NCBI GenBank assembly: GCA_945872795.1
Contig: CAMCAZ010000037.1
Location: 1 to 36,360 of the forward strand
DNA: 36,360 nt
DNA from: Chryseobacterium gleum
Lineage (GTDB): Bacteria > Bacteroidota > Bacteroidia > Flavobacteriales_F > PHOS-HE28
Reading direction: 5' to 3'
Each line of letters starts with the position of its first letter. Within the stretch, counting starts at the first letter, position 1. The position numbers were made by a program, and so were the translations under genes. Shown here in pieces: positions 4,637-36,360 of the stretch. The notes beneath the pieces were generated by a model, which searched no databases, was not told the DNA's origin, and saw nothing but the letters and a program-made list of their open reading frames with translations.

Positions 4637-6688
4637 ATGTCCCTACTGACCACCGAAGACCGCCAGCTCCGTTATGAGCGCGGCATGCATTCCGACGCCT
4701 TCCTGCTGAGCACCTACGAGATGCTGGTGTTCCCGCGCATCATCGAGGAGAAGATGCTGAGCCTGCTGCGGCAGGGCAAGATCAGCAAGTGGTTCAGCGG
4801 CATCGGTCAGGAGGCCATCAGTGTGGGTGCAGCCATGGTGCTGCATGAGGAGGAATACATCCTGCCGATGCACCGCAACCTGGGCGTGTTCACCACACGG
4901 GGCATGCCCTTCCAGAAGCTCTTCGCGCAGTGGCAGGGCAAGACCACGGGCTACAGCAAGGGCCGTGAGCGCAGTTTCCACTTCGGCAGCCAGGAGCACA
5001 AGGTGGTGGGCATGATCAGCCACCTCGGGCCGCAGATGGGCATCGCTGACGGCATAGCGCTGGCGCACAAACTGAAGAAGGAGAACCGCTGCACCATCGT
5101 CTTCACCGGTGATGGCGCGACGAGCGAAGGCGACTTCCACGAGAGCGTGAACGTGGCCGCCGTGTGGGACCTGCCGGTGCTCTTCATCATCGAGAACAAC
5201 GGCTACGGACTGAGCACGCCCAGCAGCGAGCAGTTCCGCATGAAGAGCTTCACCGACAAGGCCATCGGCTACGGTATCGAGGCGGTGCAGATCGCGGGGA
5301 ACAACATCCTGGAGGTCTACAACAACCTGGCGAAACTGGCCGACAGCGTGCGCGAGAACCCGCGTCCGATCCTGGTGGAGTGCATGACCTTTCGCATGCG
5401 AGGCCATGAGGAGGCCAGCGGAACGAAGTACGTGCCGAAGGAACTGTTCGAGACCTGGGGCAAGAAGGACCCCGTGATGAACTACGAGACCTGGTTGATC
5501 AGTCAGGGCATTTTGACCGTGGCCAAGCGCGACGAGATCCGTGCCCGCCTGAAGGACAGCATCGAGGACGACCTGAAACACGCGTTCGAGGAGCCGGAGC
5601 CGGTGCCGGTAGAAACGGCTGAATTGGCCGATGTGTACGCGAATGCCGCTTCTGACCTTTCGCCACTGGCTACTGGCCCGTTGGAGGATCGGGCCAGTAG
5701 CCAGCGGCCAGAAGCCAGTGGCGTATTCCCCGAAAAACGCATGATCGACGCCATCCAGGAAGGCCTGCGCCAGAGCATGGAGCGTCACCCGGAGTTGGTG
5801 TTGATGGGCCAAGACATTGCGGAGTACGGCGGTGCCTTCAAGATCACCGATGGCTTTGTGGAGCAGTTCGGGAAGGACCGGGTGCGCAACACGCCGTTGT
5901 GCGAGAGCGCGATCCTCGGTGCTTCGCTGGGCCTGAGCATCAAGGGCATGAAGGCCATGATGGAGATGCAGTTCGCTGATTTCGTGAGCGAGGGCATCAC
6001 CCAGATCTGCAACAACTTCGCGAAGATGCACTACCGCTGGGGCCAGAACGCCGATGTGGTCGTGCGCATGCCCACCGGCGCGGGCGTAGGAGCGGGACCG
6101 TTCCACAGCCAGAGCAACGAGATGTGGTTCGTGAAGACGCCCGGGCTGAAGGTGGTGTACCCAAGCAACCCATACGACGCCAAGGGCCTGCTGATGACCG
6201 CCTTCGATGACCCCAACCCCGTGATGTTCTTCGAGCACAAGGCGATGTACCGCAGCGTGAGCGGACCTGTGCCCGAGCAGCCCTACAGCATTCCCTTCGG
6301 CAAGGCGAACGTTGTGCGGGAAGGCGCTGCGATGAGCATCATCACCTACGGAATGGGCGTTCACTGGGCGGTGGATGTGCAGAAGGAGACCGGCCTCGAT
6401 ATTGAGATCGTCGACCTCCGCACCTTGGTCCCGTTGGATGTGGACACCATCCTCGCCAGCGTGAAGAAGACCGGCAAAGTGCTGTTGCTGCACGAGGACA
6501 CGCTGACCGCAGGTTTCGGTGGTGAGTTGGCCGCGATCATCGCCGAACATGCCTTCGAGCACCTGGATGCGCCGATCGTGCGTCTGGCCAGCTGGGATAC
6601 GCCGGTGCCGTTCTCGGTTCCGCTGGAGCAGGGTTTCCTGCCGAAGGGGAGGTTGAGGGCGGCGGTGGAAAGGTTGGTGGGGTATTGA
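4637..6688 (+). CDS. 2-oxoacid (branched-chain) dehydrogenase E1, alpha/beta fusion
   Basis: A 683-residue thiamine-diphosphate enzyme in which E1 alpha (residues about 20-335) and E1 beta (about 368-683) are one chain, as is common in Bacteroidota. The alpha half has IGQEAISVGAA and the ThDP motif GDGATSEGDFHE at about 158, ending in ENNGYG. The beta half has MGQDIAEYGGAFKIT, the E1 beta core FADFVSEGITQICN and the C-terminal transketolase region (TAGFGGELAA). It decarboxylates 2-oxoacids, most likely branched-chain ones, and reductively acylates the lipoyl group of E2; no E2 or E3 gene is nearby. The start at 4637 is chosen over an upstream in-frame ATG (4478) because it follows a -7 box and gives the family's N-terminus. 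The linker, residues about 342-362, is encoded by a palindromic insert. Confidence 0.92.
   Translation: MSLLTTEDRQLRYERGMHSDAFLLSTYEMLVFPRIIEEKMLSLLRQGKISKWFSGIGQEAISVGAAMVLHEEEYILPMHRNLGVFTTRGMPFQKLFAQWQGKTTGYSKGRERSFHFGSQEHKVVGMISHLGPQMGIADGIALAHKLKKENRCTIVFTGDGATSEGDFHESVNVAAVWDLPVLFIIENNGYGLSTPSSEQFRMKSFTDKAIGYGIEAVQIAGNNILEVYNNLAKLADSVRENPRPILVECMTFRMRGHEEASGTKYVPKELFETWGKKDPVMNYETWLISQGILTVAKRDEIRARLKDSIEDDLKHAFEEPEPVPVETAELADVYANAASDLSPLATGPLEDRASSQRPEASGVFPEKRMIDAIQEGLRQSMERHPELVLMGQDIAEYGGAFKITDGFVEQFGKDRVRNTPLCESAILGASLGLSIKGMKAMMEMQFADFVSEGITQICNNFAKMHYRWGQNADVVVRMPTGAGVGAGPFHSQSNEMWFVKTPGLKVVYPSNPYDAKGLLMTAFDDPNPVMFFEHKAMYRSVSGPVPEQPYSIPFGKANVVREGAAMSIITYGMGVHWAVDVQKETGLDIEIVDLRTLVPLDVDTILASVKKTGKVLLLHEDTLTAGFGGELAAIIAEHAFEHLDAPIVRLASWDTPVPFSVPLEQGFLPKGRLRAAVERLVGY
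5661..5723. repeat. Palindromic repeat inside the E1 linker
   Basis: Three related 18-nt arms lie in the coding sequence. 5663-5680 pairs with 5690-5707 (17 of 18) across a 9-nt loop. The first arm, read as 5661-5678, can alternatively pair with 5706-5723 (17 of 18). The two downstream arms are near-tandem copies. The insert keeps frame and encodes a hydrophilic stretch rich in Ser, Pro and Ala between the two E1 domains. Confidence 0.8.
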
Positions 6689-11534: not shown

Positions 11535-12215
11535 ATGACAGCGGCGGTGTTCGAAGCGCGATGGAACCGGATCCTGCGATCGCGTGAGCAGGGGTATGAA
11601 GAGCTCACCGATTTCATGGGTCGGTACGTCGACCTCGGGCCATTGGTCCGCACCGGCCTGCTGCGGCGTCGCGAGGAGGATGGCGAATACCAGCGTTACA
11701 ACGGCTACGTGCCCACCGAGCTCGGACAGGACCTGCTGCTCTACATCCCCGAGAAGGAACTGATCCTGGTACGGCCCGAGAAAAGTGCCTCGCTCTACCT
11801 GGTGTTGCAGAACGACCGCTCGCCCAAGGTCCCCTTCAAAGGCACCTACGCCGAGCCCACCGCCAAGCAGTTCGAGGTGGTTCGGGAGATGCGCCAGAAC
11901 GCCGGACGCGACGTGTGGCGCACGCAGCGTGCCGACCAGCTGGAGACCCGCCTGCTGGCCGGTTTCATGGACATCCGCCACTTCACCGTCCGCACCGGTA
12001 TAGGCGAAGGCGCCCTGCTGCGCTCCGGGCTCTGCGCACCACGCACCGAACGCGCCCACGACCGTGCCCTGCACCTGGAAGTGACGGAGAAAGGCGCCCC
12101 CTACCTGGAAGTGGCCGACCCCTGGGAGCTGCTGCTCGTGAAGCCCGGCATGGAGCTGCCGCTCTTCGCGGTGCTCGATCCGGAACGCGCCGACTACTGG
12201 TGCAACCTGCCCTAG
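11535..12215 (+). CDS. Uncharacterised protein with internal duplication
   Basis: A 226-residue soluble protein with no signal peptide, no membrane segment and no family I recognise. It contains two related halves. Residues about 27-95 include FMGRYVDLGPLVRTGLL, a Y-P-TE-G stretch and ELILVRP..SASLYLVLQNDR. Residues about 144-218 repeat the pattern as FMDIRHF...GALLRSGLC, EVTEKG and ELLLVKP..ELPLFAVLDPER. The charged, Arg-rich composition suggests a cytoplasmic protein, perhaps with a two-fold pseudo-symmetric beta fold. It is preceded by a -7-like box only four nt from the ATG. Its TAG stop lies in the terminal CTAG of a palindromic element, so the element abuts the gene exactly. Coding status is supported by the conserved internal repeat and codon usage like its neighbours. 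Confidence 0.7.
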   Translation: MTAAVFEARWNRILRSREQGYEELTDFMGRYVDLGPLVRTGLLRRREEDGEYQRYNGYVPTELGQDLLLYIPEKELILVRPEKSASLYLVLQNDRSPKVPFKGTYAEPTAKQFEVVREMRQNAGRDVWRTQRADQLETRLLAGFMDIRHFTVRTGIGEGALLRSGLCAPRTERAHDRALHLEVTEKGAPYLEVADPWELLLVKPGMELPLFAVLDPERADYWCNLP

Positions 12216-12379
12216 TGTGGCAACCCGTAAGTTCCTTAACCATCTCCGCCCCTCCTTCACCTTCCTGCCGCGTTGGAACATTTCGTCGTAGCGCCCGCTA
12301 CGCCGTGCATGTTCCGCCTTGCATGAAGGCGAAATAGTGGCAGACCTTCAGTTAACCAACTTACGGGTTGCGACACTAG
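12212..12379. mobile_element. 168-bp full-length palindromic (MITE-like) element, copy 1
   Basis: The ends 12212-12240 and 12351-12379 are inverted repeats, matching at 26 of 29 positions, both starting with CTAG. Inner stretches also pair: 12275-12281 with 12309-12315, and 12287-12293 with 12296-12302. All are centred on about 12295, so the whole unit is one imperfect hairpin. The first 72 nt recur at 36289-36360 with three differences. It encodes no protein. A MITE-like non-autonomous element or a large REP-type palindrome both fit. CTAG at both ends may be a target duplication or part of the repeat. Confidence 0.8.
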
Positions 12380-12408
12380 ACAGCTCCCTGTCCTCTCCGG
12401 CGCCTCCC

Positions 12409-12416
12409 TACCTTGG
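12409..12416 (+). promoter_or_regulatory. Candidate -7 box upstream of the FNR-like gene
   Basis: TACCTTGG, one base from TAnnTTTG, ends 8 nt before the ATG at 12425 and lies just outside the palindromic element. If used, the 5' leader would be almost absent. Confidence 0.45.
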
Positions 12417-12424
12417 CACCGTTC

Positions 12425-13093
12425 ATGGCACCACTGGAGACGACCATCATCAGCACGGAGTATGTGACGCCGGACGTGAAGCGTTTCGTGCTCACGAAAC
12501 CCAAAGGTTTCCGTTTCGTTCCCGGCCAGGGCTGTATGGTCTCCATCAATATCCCGGAGCTCCTCACCGAACGGCGTCCCTTCACCTTCACCAACCTGCC
12601 CGGTGCACGCACCCTGGAGCTGATCGTGAAGATCTACGCCTCGCACAAGGGGGTCACCGAACAGATGGCCCTGTTGCGCAAAGGCGATGGGCTGCTGCTG
12701 CACGAGGTCTTCGGCACCATCGCCTACAAGGGCCCCGGCTATTTCTTCGCCGGTGGCGCGGGGATCACGCCCTTCCTCTCCATCTTCCGCGACCTGCACA
12801 AGAAGAAGAAGCTGAAGGGCTGCACCCTGGTCTATTCCAACAAGTCCGCGCAGGATGTCATCCTGGACAAGGAACTGGAGACCATGCTGGGCCGTCATTT
12901 CCTGAAGACCTTCACCCGACAGGGCGTCATCGGCTTCCGCGAGCGCCGCATCGATCGCGACATCCTCATCACGCTGGTGCAGAACTTCGACCAGTACTTC
13001 TACCTCTGCGGGCCACAGGCCTTCGTGGCCGACCTGGAGCGCATGCTGCTGGAGCTGGGCGCGAGGCCGGACAGTCTCGTGGTCGAGGCCTGA
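12425..13093 (+). CDS. Ferredoxin-NADP reductase-like flavoprotein oxidoreductase
   Basis: A 222-residue protein with FAD-binding and NAD-binding halves of the ferredoxin reductase superfamily. RRPFTF at residues 50-55 is the flavin-binding RxY[ST]-type motif, with Phe in place of Tyr. GGAGITPFLSIFRDL from 110 is the pyridine-nucleotide loop, and LCGPQAFV from 194 is the C-terminal CGP motif. There is no iron-sulphur cluster domain. The family moves electrons between NAD(P)H and a one-electron carrier; the partner is not evident and no ferredoxin gene is adjacent. The ATG at 12425 is preferred to a TTG four codons upstream because it matches the family N-terminus (ETTIISTEYVTPDVKRF). The gene stands alone, with a convergent gene five bp beyond its stop. 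Confidence 0.88.
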   Translation: MAPLETTIISTEYVTPDVKRFVLTKPKGFRFVPGQGCMVSINIPELLTERRPFTFTNLPGARTLELIVKIYASHKGVTEQMALLRKGDGLLLHEVFGTIAYKGPGYFFAGGAGITPFLSIFRDLHKKKKLKGCTLVYSNKSAQDVILDKELETMLGRHFLKTFTRQGVIGFRERRIDRDILITLVQNFDQYFYLCGPQAFVADLERMLLELGARPDSLVVEA

Positions 13094-15364: not shown

Positions 15365-15433
15365 CGCAGAGCGCGCAGAGTACGCAGAGGCCTTTCCCAT
15401 TTTCTGATCTTCTGATCCTCTGATCTTCTGATC
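15365..15433. repeat. Short tandem repeats between GH38 and YciH genes
   Basis: Two blocks occur. At 15365-15389, GCAGAG appears three times separated by four-base spacers. At 15402-15433 the octamer TTCTGATC is repeated four times, the third unit starting with C instead of T. The same octamer and its complement GATCAGAA/T build the hairpin at 22563-22649. Confidence 0.75.
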
Positions 15434-15437
15434 GCCC

Positions 15438-18224
15438 CTACTTCCACCATGTGATCAACGGCCGCGTCATTTCCAGCCCGAACCGCCGCGCCTCCTCCAG
15501 CTTGAACGGCCCGTGCATCTTCAGGTAGAGGTCGAAGGTGATGGGCCCTTCCTGGTCGGCCTTGAAGTTGGTGTGCCAGTAGTTGTTGAGGGCGTAGAGG
15601 TAGATGGTGCTGCTGCTCTTCGCCTCGGTCTTCCAGGCCTTGTACATCTCCGGGTTGGTGCCGCGACCGGGGTTCACCTTGCGCTCGTCCACCATCTCAC
15701 CCACCTCCCAGATCGCGCCTTGCGGGCAGACGATGGTGACGCCCATGCTGTCGTTGCTCACATCGATCCAACGCTGGGCGCAGAAGAAATCGTTGTTGCT
15801 GCCAGGGATGCGGCCGCTCTCGGGCGTTACGCAGGTATCGCCGATGCCGATGCGGACGGTGGCGTTGGGGATGTTGAAGGGAAGGGCAAGGTGGAGGGAT
15901 TCCTTCTCACGCGTGCCACATCCCGACACATCGAGCCTTACGGTATAGATATCGTCGGCGCGTTTTCCATAGACTACATGCGTCTCTTCGACTGGACGGG
16001 CCTGCACTGGTCCAAATTGGTAGACAAGAGGGGTAGCGATATCCATGATGGATGCGGGGATCACCGTTCGGTCGATAGGTTTAAAGTAGGGCGCTATTTG
16101 GATAAGGGCGCCATGGCCCAGCCACTCTTCTATTCTGTCCACATACCACCCCGCGCTATCCGCGAACGCCTTCTTCACCCGCCACTGGTCCGTGGTGAAG
16201 TGCGCATCCGGATCGCTGATGCTGCACCACGCGCCCCAAGTGTGTTCGTGCCACATCACGATGCTGCGCTTGGCGCGGTAGAGCAGGTGCGGGTCGATCG
16301 GGTTGGCGCGGGCCTTTGCCCCCTCGATCAGGTTGGAAAGACGCGCGCTGAGCACACGCACGCTTCCTTCTTCCGCCGCCGTGCTGTAGGCGCCATCCTC
16401 CCAATAGGGCGTGAAGTCACCACTCCAGGTGGGGATGTCCTTGCCGTACTTCGTTTCGAACTCCTGCATCATCGCACCCGCATTGGCGATGATCAAGCGT
16501 GGTGAGGCGTACTTCTCGTTCCAGTCGCGCACGAAGTCGCTGAGCGTGCTGTCCACCGGGCCGTTGTCGCTCACGATGTTGTAGCGCCACTGCAGCATGT
16601 CGTAGGGATAGCCCTTCGCGGCCAGATCGTTCATGTACGCGGCGATCTTCCGCGTGCCGCGCTCCTTGATCGCACCGGCCGTGTATCCGTGCCAGCCGCC
16701 ATAGCCCTGGCCGGCCGTCCACACGAGGATGCTGTCCTTGCCCGTAGTGCTCTTCCACCAGTAAGGTTTGTCGCCCTGTTCGCGCAGGGTGCTGCCGATG
16801 CGGTCGCCGCCGTCGGGCATATCGGGGATGTAGTTCGGTCCCTGGCTCAGATGGCGAATGCCGTGCGCGGCGTAGGCGTCCACCATGCTCCAGCTCATGC
16901 CGGGGATGTCCGTCTGCATCGCCATGGTGATCGGCAGGGCGCCTTCGCCAAAGCGCTCCGGCGACCCGCCGTCGTACCACTTCCGCAGCGAATCGGCGTA
17001 CTCCACGATCCAGTGCATCTCCTCGGGCGTGCAGAGGCCGGTGAGGATGTTCGCGTAGTTCGCGCTGAGGGCGATGCTGCCCGCCTTCACCGCCGCGATG
17101 AAGCGCTGCTTGTCCGCCTCGCTGGCGATGCCGAGGAAGTTCTCCACGGCCCAGAGGCTCTCCACGTTCCACACGAAGCGGCTGTCGGCGGGATAGTCTT
17201 TCGTGCGGTCGATCAGCTCCAGCGCCTTCCAGATGTTGTTGTTCTGGATCGTCTCCACTTCCGCCTGCAGGTGGCTGTAGCCGATGTCGGTGTGGCTGTG
17301 GTGGACGAGGTGGATGTCGCGGTGGATGATCGGGAGCACGTCGACTGTTCTGGTCTTGTCGAACTCTATGGAATACGGGTCTTCCTTTCTCCGAGCGATC
17401 ACGGACCGGACCGCTATCACGGAGTGGTTGGTAACGGGTTCTATCGGGACTCTGAACTCATTAAGACCGTTCACGATCTTGAAGTTGCCTCTGATCGGTT
17501 CGTCATCAATAGAAACGGCGAGCACATTTGGCGCACCGAAGTGCATCATCGTGAGGAGCAGCTCCTGTTTGCCATCCATGCGTATGAACGGCAACACTTC
17601 CACCTCCACCTTCTCCTCGAAGCTGTACCGAAAGGTCATGAACCAATCGGGGCTGTCCTGCGCGTGGCCAACGATCTTCAACTTCAGCGGCTGTCCGGGC
17701 GTGATGTACTTCCCCGGCACTCGCAAATGCGCGAATCCATGCGCATCGCCGTGGCGGTCGGCCTTGCTGAACTCGAAGAGGAGCTTGGTACTGTCCGCTC
17801 CAATTGCCGACCAGGAGCCCGGCTTGGTCGTGTGGTGGGTGGTGAAGGTGAGCGCCTTCGTGTCGTTGATGTAGAGATCGAAGCTGCGATCTCCACCGCT
17901 GGTGGTGCTGTTGTGCGCAGCGATCCAGCTGAAGTAGAAGTACTGGGTCGATTCCCTTTCTGCGAAGGGGACTTCGGCGGTCTCCCAGGCAATCGCCTTC
18001 TTCCCATCGGTGCAACGCGTGAGCAAGGCCGTGGTGGCATGCTCCGGGTAGACGCTGAAGTAGGAGAGGACCTCGCCCTCCACATCCTTCGCGTAGCCGT
18101 TGATCACGTGCTGCTTGCCTAAGACGGGCAGGTCCACCTGGGCAAAAGCGCACAGGCCGATCGTGAAGGCGTACAGGGCTATCAGCAGTCGTTCCACCCG
18201 ACCAAGGTAGAAGTGGGAGGCCAC
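15438..18224 (-). CDS. Secreted glycoside hydrolase family 38 (alpha-mannosidase-like)
   Basis: A 928-residue exported enzyme. The N-terminus (VERLLIALYAFTIGLCAFAQ) is a signal peptide. Residues about 30-300 are beta-sandwich regions. The GH38 catalytic domain begins near 305 with DIHLVHHSHTDIGY, whose H-x-H-x-D pattern holds the zinc ligands, then FVWNVESLWAVE. The expected nucleophile Asp lies in AMQTDIPGMSW near 436, and MWHEHTWGAW near 645 supplies a further His ligand region. The rest is beta-rich. GH38 enzymes hydrolyse alpha-mannosides; the substrate here could be fungal, algal or host N-glycan mannan. There is no SusC/SusD pair beside it. The longest start is GTG at 18224. GTG at 18197 gives a cleaner signal peptide and is preceded by TACCTTGG (18202-18209), so it may be the true start. 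Confidence 0.87.
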   Translation of the reverse strand: MASHFYLGRVERLLIALYAFTIGLCAFAQVDLPVLGKQHVINGYAKDVEGEVLSYFSVYPEHATTALLTRCTDGKKAIAWETAEVPFAERESTQYFYFSWIAAHNSTTSGGDRSFDLYINDTKALTFTTHHTTKPGSWSAIGADSTKLLFEFSKADRHGDAHGFAHLRVPGKYITPGQPLKLKIVGHAQDSPDWFMTFRYSFEEKVEVEVLPFIRMDGKQELLLTMMHFGAPNVLAVSIDDEPIRGNFKIVNGLNEFRVPIEPVTNHSVIAVRSVIARRKEDPYSIEFDKTRTVDVLPIIHRDIHLVHHSHTDIGYSHLQAEVETIQNNNIWKALELIDRTKDYPADSRFVWNVESLWAVENFLGIASEADKQRFIAAVKAGSIALSANYANILTGLCTPEEMHWIVEYADSLRKWYDGGSPERFGEGALPITMAMQTDIPGMSWSMVDAYAAHGIRHLSQGPNYIPDMPDGGDRIGSTLREQGDKPYWWKSTTGKDSILVWTAGQGYGGWHGYTAGAIKERGTRKIAAYMNDLAAKGYPYDMLQWRYNIVSDNGPVDSTLSDFVRDWNEKYASPRLIIANAGAMMQEFETKYGKDIPTWSGDFTPYWEDGAYSTAAEEGSVRVLSARLSNLIEGAKARANPIDPHLLYRAKRSIVMWHEHTWGAWCSISDPDAHFTTDQWRVKKAFADSAGWYVDRIEEWLGHGALIQIAPYFKPIDRTVIPASIMDIATPLVYQFGPVQARPVEETHVVYGKRADDIYTVRLDVSGCGTREKESLHLALPFNIPNATVRIGIGDTCVTPESGRIPGSNNDFFCAQRWIDVSNDSMGVTIVCPQGAIWEVGEMVDERKVNPGRGTNPEMYKAWKTEAKSSSTIYLYALNNYWHTNFKADQEGPITFDLYLKMHGPFKLEEARRFGLEMTRPLITWWK

Positions 18225-22562: not shown

Positions 22563-22649
22563 GATCAGATGATCAGAACATCAGATGATCAGATAATGGA
22601 CCGCTGCGGCGATCATCATCTGATCTTCTGATCATCTCATTTTCTGATC
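22563..22649. repeat. Octamer-built hairpin between convergent kdnB and cupin genes
   Basis: The left arm (22563-22594) is four octamers of the form GATCAGAT/A. The right arm (about 22611-22649) carries the complementary TCTGATCT/A units. A 16-nt spacer containing CCGCTGCGGC separates them. It lies directly between the stop of kdnB and the stop of the cupin gene, whose TGA falls in the last unit, so it probably serves as a shared bidirectional terminator. Confidence 0.75.
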
Positions 22650-22983
22650 AGCGCAAGAACGCCCCGTCCACGATCAGCAGCTTCACCGGCCCGTTCGTCC
22701 GCGACCGATGCGAGCTGAGCCCATCGCTCACGTGGTAGGACATGCCGGCCTTCAGCACGTTCACCGTTCCATCCTCGTGTTCGTTTATCAATTCACCCTC
22801 CAGCACGAAGACCAAGTGGCCGAGCTGGCACCAATGGTCGGCGAGGTAGCCTTCTGAGTACTCGATCATCCGGATGCGCAAGCCATCGTACTGCACGGTG
22901 CGCATGGTGGCCGTTCCGGTGCTACCGTTCACCACCGTGTTCGGTATCTGCGACCAATCAGTCGTTTGGAAAGGGATCTTCAT
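22648..22983 (-). CDS. Small cupin-fold protein (DHCW-motif type)
   Basis: A 111-residue single-domain cupin. It begins MKIPFQTTDWSQIPNTVVNG, and has YDGLRIRMIEYSEGYLADHWCQLGHLVFVLEGEL, which carries the Asp-His-Trp-Cys signature of this small family, then LKAGMSYHVSDGLSSHRS and KLLIVDGAFL. His and Cys residues in the first motif and His in the second could bind a metal. The function is unknown; the fold commonly binds small molecules. Convergent with kdnB, sharing an octamer hairpin at its 3' end. A 321-bp spacer separates it from the next, divergent gene. Confidence 0.85.
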   Translation of the reverse strand: MKIPFQTTDWSQIPNTVVNGSTGTATMRTVQYDGLRIRMIEYSEGYLADHWCQLGHLVFVLEGELINEHEDGTVNVLKAGMSYHVSDGLSSHRSRTNGPVKLLIVDGAFLR

Positions 22984-36288: not shown

Positions 36289-36360
36289 AGTGTCGCAACC
36301 CGTAAGTTCCTTCACCATCTCCGCCCCTCTTTCACCTTCCTGCCGCGTTGGAACATTTCG
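36289..36360. mobile_element. 168-bp palindromic (MITE-like) element, copy 2, cut by window edge
   Basis: The last 72 nt of the window match 12214-12285 at 69 of 72 positions, starting at the same terminal repeat (AGTGT[CG]GCAACCCG). At the sixth base it matches the right-hand terminus of copy 1. The right half is outside the window. Confidence 0.8.

Follow-up and report, generated by a model that had tools for sequence, protein, structure and literature searches.

Among the described systems that come closest to the element reported here, the repeat unit of pneumococcus (RUP), attributed to IS630-Spn1, is likewise gene-less, shorter than 200 bp and intergenic, with IS630-like ends and a TA target (PMC2229807, PMC3049150). 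RUP, however, measures 107 bp and has 9-bp ends similar to those of an IS of the same species, whereas the present element spans 162 bp, is palindromic throughout, and was found without a matching IS in its genome. The Correia/NEMIS elements of Neisseria (about 107 to 155 bp) share with it terminal inverted repeats and TA at the termini (PMC2229807); our element differs in having a conserved core and arms that vary between species. REPINs, the mobile hairpins of the REPIN/RAYT system, are reported to undergo compensatory changes in the stretch between their conserved ends (PMC3116915), and REPs lie near the 3′ ends of genes (PMC3733652). Both traits recur here, but the RAYTs that were read have other hairpins, the element ends carry CTAG or TA, and the arms are not hairpins themselves. 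MITEPsy1 of P. syringae, possibly of the IS5 group, has a similar target (CTAG or YTAA), but its 4-nt duplication (PMC3189936) does not fit most sister-species copies of our element. For IS630 and ISY100, insertion at TA with duplication of the TA is reported (PMC2170065), and a title in the reference list of that article makes CTAG a reported IS630 target, an IS630-associated transposon preferring TA in CTAG.

The element lies at positions 12215 to 12376 of the window, i.e., the whole stretch of 36,360 nucleotides analyzed, which is the complete contig G000:C37 of the source genome (G000; 3.32 Mb, 102 contigs, completeness 100). It is probably a MITE, a 162-bp gene-less DNA transposon moved in trans by a DDE transposase of the IS630/Tc1-mariner type at the TA of YTAR or CTAG, belonging to a family spread over one genus. 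As in MITEs generally, its length is below 200 bp, a transposase gene is lacking, and terminal inverted repeats are present. The sequence-only reading had proposed a full-length palindrome at 12212 to 12379, and folding confirmed it: as DNA, this segment reaches −40.3 kcal/mol, whereas 200 shuffled sequences average −18.75 and none of them does as well (z = −7.46); as RNA, its fold has a z value of −9.95. The DNA fold pairs the copy end to end and includes several inner helices. The 29-bp terminal inverted repeats claimed for this copy were also recovered by an inverted-repeat search (26 of 29 positions matching, 90% complementary).

The fold, the genome copies, and the alignment define as the best repeat unit a 162-bp quasi-palindrome, GTGT...ACAC, with CTA on its left and TAG on its right. 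Specifically, the left terminal arm (12215 to 12233, its GTGT tip at 12215 to 12218) pairs with the right terminal arm (12358 to 12376), both delimited by the inverted repeat and covariation; in 41 aligned copies, 95.1% of the cells in the 19-column arms are paired. Consensus comparison and covariation mark a species-specific block within each arm, at 12219 to 12230 (columns 5 to 16) and at 12361 to 12372 (columns 147 to 158). The conserved core extends from 12244 to 12347 (columns 30 to 133) and encloses a central hairpin, CGTAGCGCCCGCTACG, at 12287 to 12302, recognized from sequence and fold. Two CTAGs border the element: the left one (12212 to 12215, forward strand) is the putative target with its TA duplicated, and the right one (12376 to 12379) bears the second TA; all other parts are assigned no strand. 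The first 19 bp read GTGTCGCAACCCGTAAGTT in G000 and GTGTGGTGGCCCCTAAGTT in the relative G026, and the end sequence is also written as CTAGTGTCG. Rfam gave 0 matches at the gathering threshold in the window and 0 at E values up to 5 for six loci, and the element contains no terminator-like or promoter-like match.

A second copy had been claimed at 36289 to 36360, and it was indeed recovered there, matching query positions 3 to 74 with 96% identity, i.e., about three differences in 72 nt. It comprises the first 71 of the 162 bp (36290 to 36360, no strand assigned) with the left junction CCA, a changed CTA, and is partial because the contig of the window ends at 36360. Since its flank, when reverse complemented, equals that of the complete copy C47:26557-26724, both are taken as one copy. 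Far from being confined to these two copies, the element occurs in the source genome at 25 forward places representing 24 distinct copies, 22 of them complete and 2 cut by contig ends. All are 93 to 98% identical to copy 1, and their flanks are unrelated to each other. A 52-bp derivative without the middle is present at G000:C81:492-543. Searched with up to three mismatches, the 19-bp end pattern has 49 sites in G000, all in these copies and the 52-bp derivative. The 15-bp end pattern additionally gave solitary ends, three of which are identical to the pattern and two of which deviate at one position; the solitary outer 15 to 17 bp are located at G000:C11:27367, C28:6969, C43:4184, C38:18415, and C67:8313 (L066, L060, L061, L062, and L063, respectively). 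The one at C11:27367 sits on the TAG stop of a gene, as full copies do. These solitary ends, above all the coding-like ones, may equally be remnants or chance occurrences, and in the 600 to 700 bases read, no transposase was seen beside them.

Copy 1 lies between two forward-strand genes. The upstream gene (11535 to 12215) encodes 226 amino acids without a Pfam match, and the downstream gene (12413 to 13093) encodes an oxidoreductase with an NAD-binding domain. The proposal that the copy touches the stop codon of the gene before it was borne out: the TAG at 12213 to 12215 belongs to the left CTAG. The further proposal, that it adjoins a promoter box of the gene after it, could not be confirmed, as a scan of 12000 to 12600 limited to sigma-70-type sites returned none. 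The sequence TACCTTGG at 12409 to 12416, about 30 bp outside the element, resembles the Bacteroidota −7 box.

The coincidence with a stop codon recurs at other copies. The coding potential of the frames entering the element was scored for 46 ends, one of them counted twice, and a threshold of a score of ≥0.2 with ≥80 open codons was chosen while reading the table. Eleven ends at 10 copies pass this threshold, and in all 11 cases the terminal CTAG supplies the TAG at which the gene stops; with random phase, an 11-of-11 agreement would have a chance of (1/3)^11, about 6e-6. Lowering the score threshold to 0.1 adds two ends, the left end of L011 (in phase) and the right end of L003 (out of phase), resulting in 12 of 13. 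With a looser gene call, a stop codon is found at 12 of the 24 copies, involving 13 gene ends. Called genes never extend across a copy, and three weak calls enter one by 19 to 57 bp (L008, L016, and L024). For typA, comparison with relatives shows that gene length is kept: in all 29 relatives, the position of the gene end agrees to within a few residues, and in none of the 29 does the stretch read after the stop codon contain the element. In four of them (L115, L116, L124, and L137), the context of the typA stop is an empty C-TAG. The alignment with G015 and G039 continues past the stop into a hairpin resembling a typA terminator, which places the G000 element between stop and hairpin. At L007, two convergent genes meet the element, each with its TAG at one of the two ends, and G029 has this site without it. 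Hence, element-free sites exist in relatives at both loci compared, typA and L007.

A simple account of this placement is a CTAG target combined with the loss of insertions that split genes. An element on a stop codon seems harmless to the gene, and the hairpin may influence the mRNA transcribed from the preceding gene. Stop codons supplied by repeats have been described before, namely, by BOX repeats in 36 pneumococcal genes (PMC3049150). Among the papers listed by the literature searches, none describes this element family, or an IS630 MITE that follows a stop-codon rule, in its title or the opening of its abstract, which leaves the absence of either from print unproven. A CTAG target together with selection can thus park insertions exactly on stop codons, where annotators could mistake them for designed 3′ elements.

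The junctions were counted in 41 copies of exactly 162 bp from seven genomes, including 20 of the 24 G000 copies; copies of other lengths as well as L076 and L090 were left out. In the three bases that flank each end, the 20 full-length G000 copies have C in 39 of 40 cases, T in 36 of 40, and A in 35 of 40; for the 21 copies in other genomes, the corresponding counts are 37 of 42 (Y), 29 of 42 (T), and 33 of 42 (A). The whole CTA is present at 30 and TA at 31 of the 40 G000 ends, and TA at 21 of 42 ends elsewhere. Both ends carry TA in 12 of 20 G000 copies and in 6 of 21 copies elsewhere. Identical 4-mers at both ends (CTAG in G000) occur in 11 of 20 and 2 of 21 copies, respectively. Within G000, a 4-bp duplication of CTAG is indistinguishable from a CTAG target with duplication of TA. 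The G026 copies L081 and L094, from a sister species, read TTAG...CTAA and thus have no 4-bp direct repeat. This is the arrangement expected if the target had been TTAA, the TA had been duplicated, and the terminal G and C belonged to the element, and it favors a 2-bp duplication. Of the CTAG or TA target duplication that the sequence-only reading advised looking for, the observed part is TA or CTAG at many ends; the duplication itself is putative.

Under the MITE reading, both ends would be recognized in trans by a transposase of the IS630/Tc1-mariner type, which would excise the element at GTGT/ACAC in a cut-and-paste reaction and insert it at the TA within YTAR (CTAG in G000), so that TA would come to stand on both sides. 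Insertions that split genes would presumably be lost; CTAG is strongly depleted in the window, where base composition predicts 127 occurrences but 8 are found, two of them contributed by copy 1. Surviving copies would then lie in intergenic CTAGs or in CTAGs made by ...C TAG stops, the gene keeping its stop codon and length.

A survey of 98 genomes found matches in 17, all of the same genus. Four of these (G008, G015, G029, and G041) were rejected as carriers, their sole match being a 24-nt look-alike read as coding. In total, 24- to 25-nt matches in these four genomes, at G005:C82, and at G000:C2 were dropped as coding look-alikes, whereas a 64-nt match in G028 was kept as a degenerate fragment. 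The element is thus carried by 13 of 45 genomes of the genus, G000 included, and by 0 of 53 others. Eleven relatives were rescored, and copy numbers per genome from the survey, which scored up to 8 candidates in each genome, are to be read as "at least" values; the richest relative is G026, with 28 places listed, fragments included. One insertion, with the same flank, is common to G026 (L095) and G023 (L054), and its arms no longer match. At the ends of contigs G026:C44 and G026:C8 (L088 and L100), an element copy has apparently been interrupted by a different mobile element that shows TAATGGACAAAAGGGATGG-like ends and a 7-bp repeat, AGATCTT. In a wider contig collection, an exact 17-mer of the element end occurred once in each of three stretches from unrelated groups and was taken as chance. 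A distant-mode search of plasmids gave no element match, and the exact core pattern was absent from viral contigs.

Comparison of the G000 and G026 consensus sequences revealed that divergence is concentrated in one block of each arm: identity is 100% for the tips, 96% for the inner arm, and 93% for the core versus 58% for columns 5 to 16 and 147 to 158 together. These two blocks (12219 to 12230 and 12361 to 12372 in copy 1) differ between the species yet stay complementary to each other, and in helix 1, 12 of 18 pairs are changed on both sides. Over the whole structure, there are 13 covarying pairs versus a shuffled mean of 7.1 and 4 to 6 in slid controls, and 0 of 500 shuffles are as high, a test that relatedness can inflate. 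The arms of a MITE are expected to follow the binding site of its helper transposase, and the joint change of both blocks therefore suggests helper switching. Conceivably, though we consider it unlikely, the MITE keeps its tips and body and swaps a 12-bp recognition block in both arms via hairpin-templated repair, switching transposase when a helper dies out. If true, such a swap would explain the conserved core and GTGT tips, the covarying arms, and the missing helper. It raises a testable question, namely, whether the copying of one arm into the other would allow a palindromic MITE to adopt a different helper transposase.

A transposase with fully matching ends, as sought at the suggestion of the sequence-only reading, was not found, and the enzyme family is therefore inferred from the tip, the target, and the TA pattern. 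A scan for IS630 (DDE_3) genes gave matches in 11 of 43 genomes of the genus, i.e., in 5 of 12 carriers and 6 of 31 noncarriers, without a clear link to the element. The only one detected in G000 (C15) is truncated, with a 255-residue frame and unrelated ends (TTACTGAGCCGG). The sister genome G001, by comparison, holds an IS630-family IS on C132, with an unbroken frame of 359 amino acids (244 bits to the NCBIfam IS630 model, cut-off 100). Its ends read CTA followed by GTGTTGTGATTTGTAA... and, inverted, CTA followed by GTGTTGCGATTTATT..., so that CTA and GTGTTGYGATTT... are found on both sides, with the same CTA-GTGT tips as in the element. Little is shared past the GTGT tip, 10 to 11 of the first 20 bases matching the G000 element end. 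No IS630 IS with the ends of the element was found in G000, and only the GTGT tip and CTA are clearly shared, with the IS of G001. At E values up to 1e-10, G000 contains nothing that matches the transposase of G001, and the three other matches of this enzyme among the 45 genus genomes are only 26 to 28% identical. Two related fragments in G289, of another genus (67% identical), run into ACAC-TAG, and a further relative in G117 runs into ACAC-TGG; the relatives in G144, G016, and G034 have no ACAC-TAG-like end.

Besides spread as a nonautonomous transposable element, the sequence-only reading had offered a REP-like hairpin mobilized by a RAYT. The former agrees with the 24 copies, their unrelated flanks, the element-free sites at two loci, and the TA or CTAG at many ends; the latter is not supported. 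We regard it as rather improbable that a RAYT (Y1 tyrosine transposase) moves the element in single-stranded form, as a REPIN-like hairpin, and leaves the target unduplicated, even though the hairpin is full length, the arms covary much as the compensatory changes reported for REPINs (PMC3116915) would lead one to expect, and copies are placed beside the 3′ ends of genes. G000 does contain one RAYT-like Y1 gene, albeit scoring 38.5 bits to the NCBIfam RAYT model and thus below the cut-off of 80. The best point in favor of RAYT mobilization comes from G026, where the sole Y1/RAYT gene found (C43:2405-2826, L169) terminates at the TAG that borders an element copy, a case that we count as another stop-codon insertion; the copy is followed by the RAYT's own hairpin type, CACAGGCG.... 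Seven RAYTs were read among the Y1 matches, all from one subfamily that includes the G000 gene and a broken member in G008. All seven are bordered by different hairpins (CACAGGCG..., CCGGCTTCCAGCCGG...), which are unlike the element, and the element lies beside only the one in G026. Y1 matches do not follow the distribution of the element (8 of 12 carriers versus 23 of 31 others in 43 genomes), and the carriers G001, G007, G038, and G039 have none, two of these genomes being 94% (G038) and 97% (G039) complete. Moreover, the folds of the 32-nt element arms alone do not surpass those of shuffled sequences (z = 0.89 and −0.19), whereas two RAYT-flanking stretches do fold alone (z = −3.5 and −4.0). 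A Y1 gene on the contig of the element in G005 was considered and discarded, as it does not match this RAYT subfamily.

The element might also be a MITE served by a different DDE family with a 4-bp duplication (CTAG or YTAR), such as the IS5 group, in which case the element would read TGTCGC...GCGACA. Such duplications are known from the P. syringae MITE cited above, and CTAG is directly repeated at both ends of 11 of 20 G000 copies, but with equal 4-mers in only 2 of 21 copies from other genomes, where TTAG...CTAA, CTGG...CTAA, and CTAG...CTAT are seen instead, we consider this origin very unlikely; mutation could explain some of these junctions. G000 and G026 each contain one DDE_Tnp_1 gene, with no element-like ends in the stretch read. 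Least plausible is that the host maintains the sequence as a structured RNA or DNA, for instance, as a 3′ end or mRNA stabilizer after stop codons. The strong RNA fold, the stop codons at half of the copies under the lenient gene call, and the compensatory arm changes would suit such a function, but no copy was found in 32 of 45 genus genomes, typA does without the element in every relative compared, the old insertion common to L095 and L054 has lost its arm matching, and neither Rfam nor the terminator and promoter searches gave a match.

The window contains further repeats outside the element. At 5647 to 5723, there is another imperfect inverted repeat, with 34-nt arms that are 79% complementary and lie 9 nt apart. 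Short arrays of an 8-bp repeat of the TCTGATCN type occupy 15390 to 15449 and 22564 to 22657, the second of which includes inverted copies.
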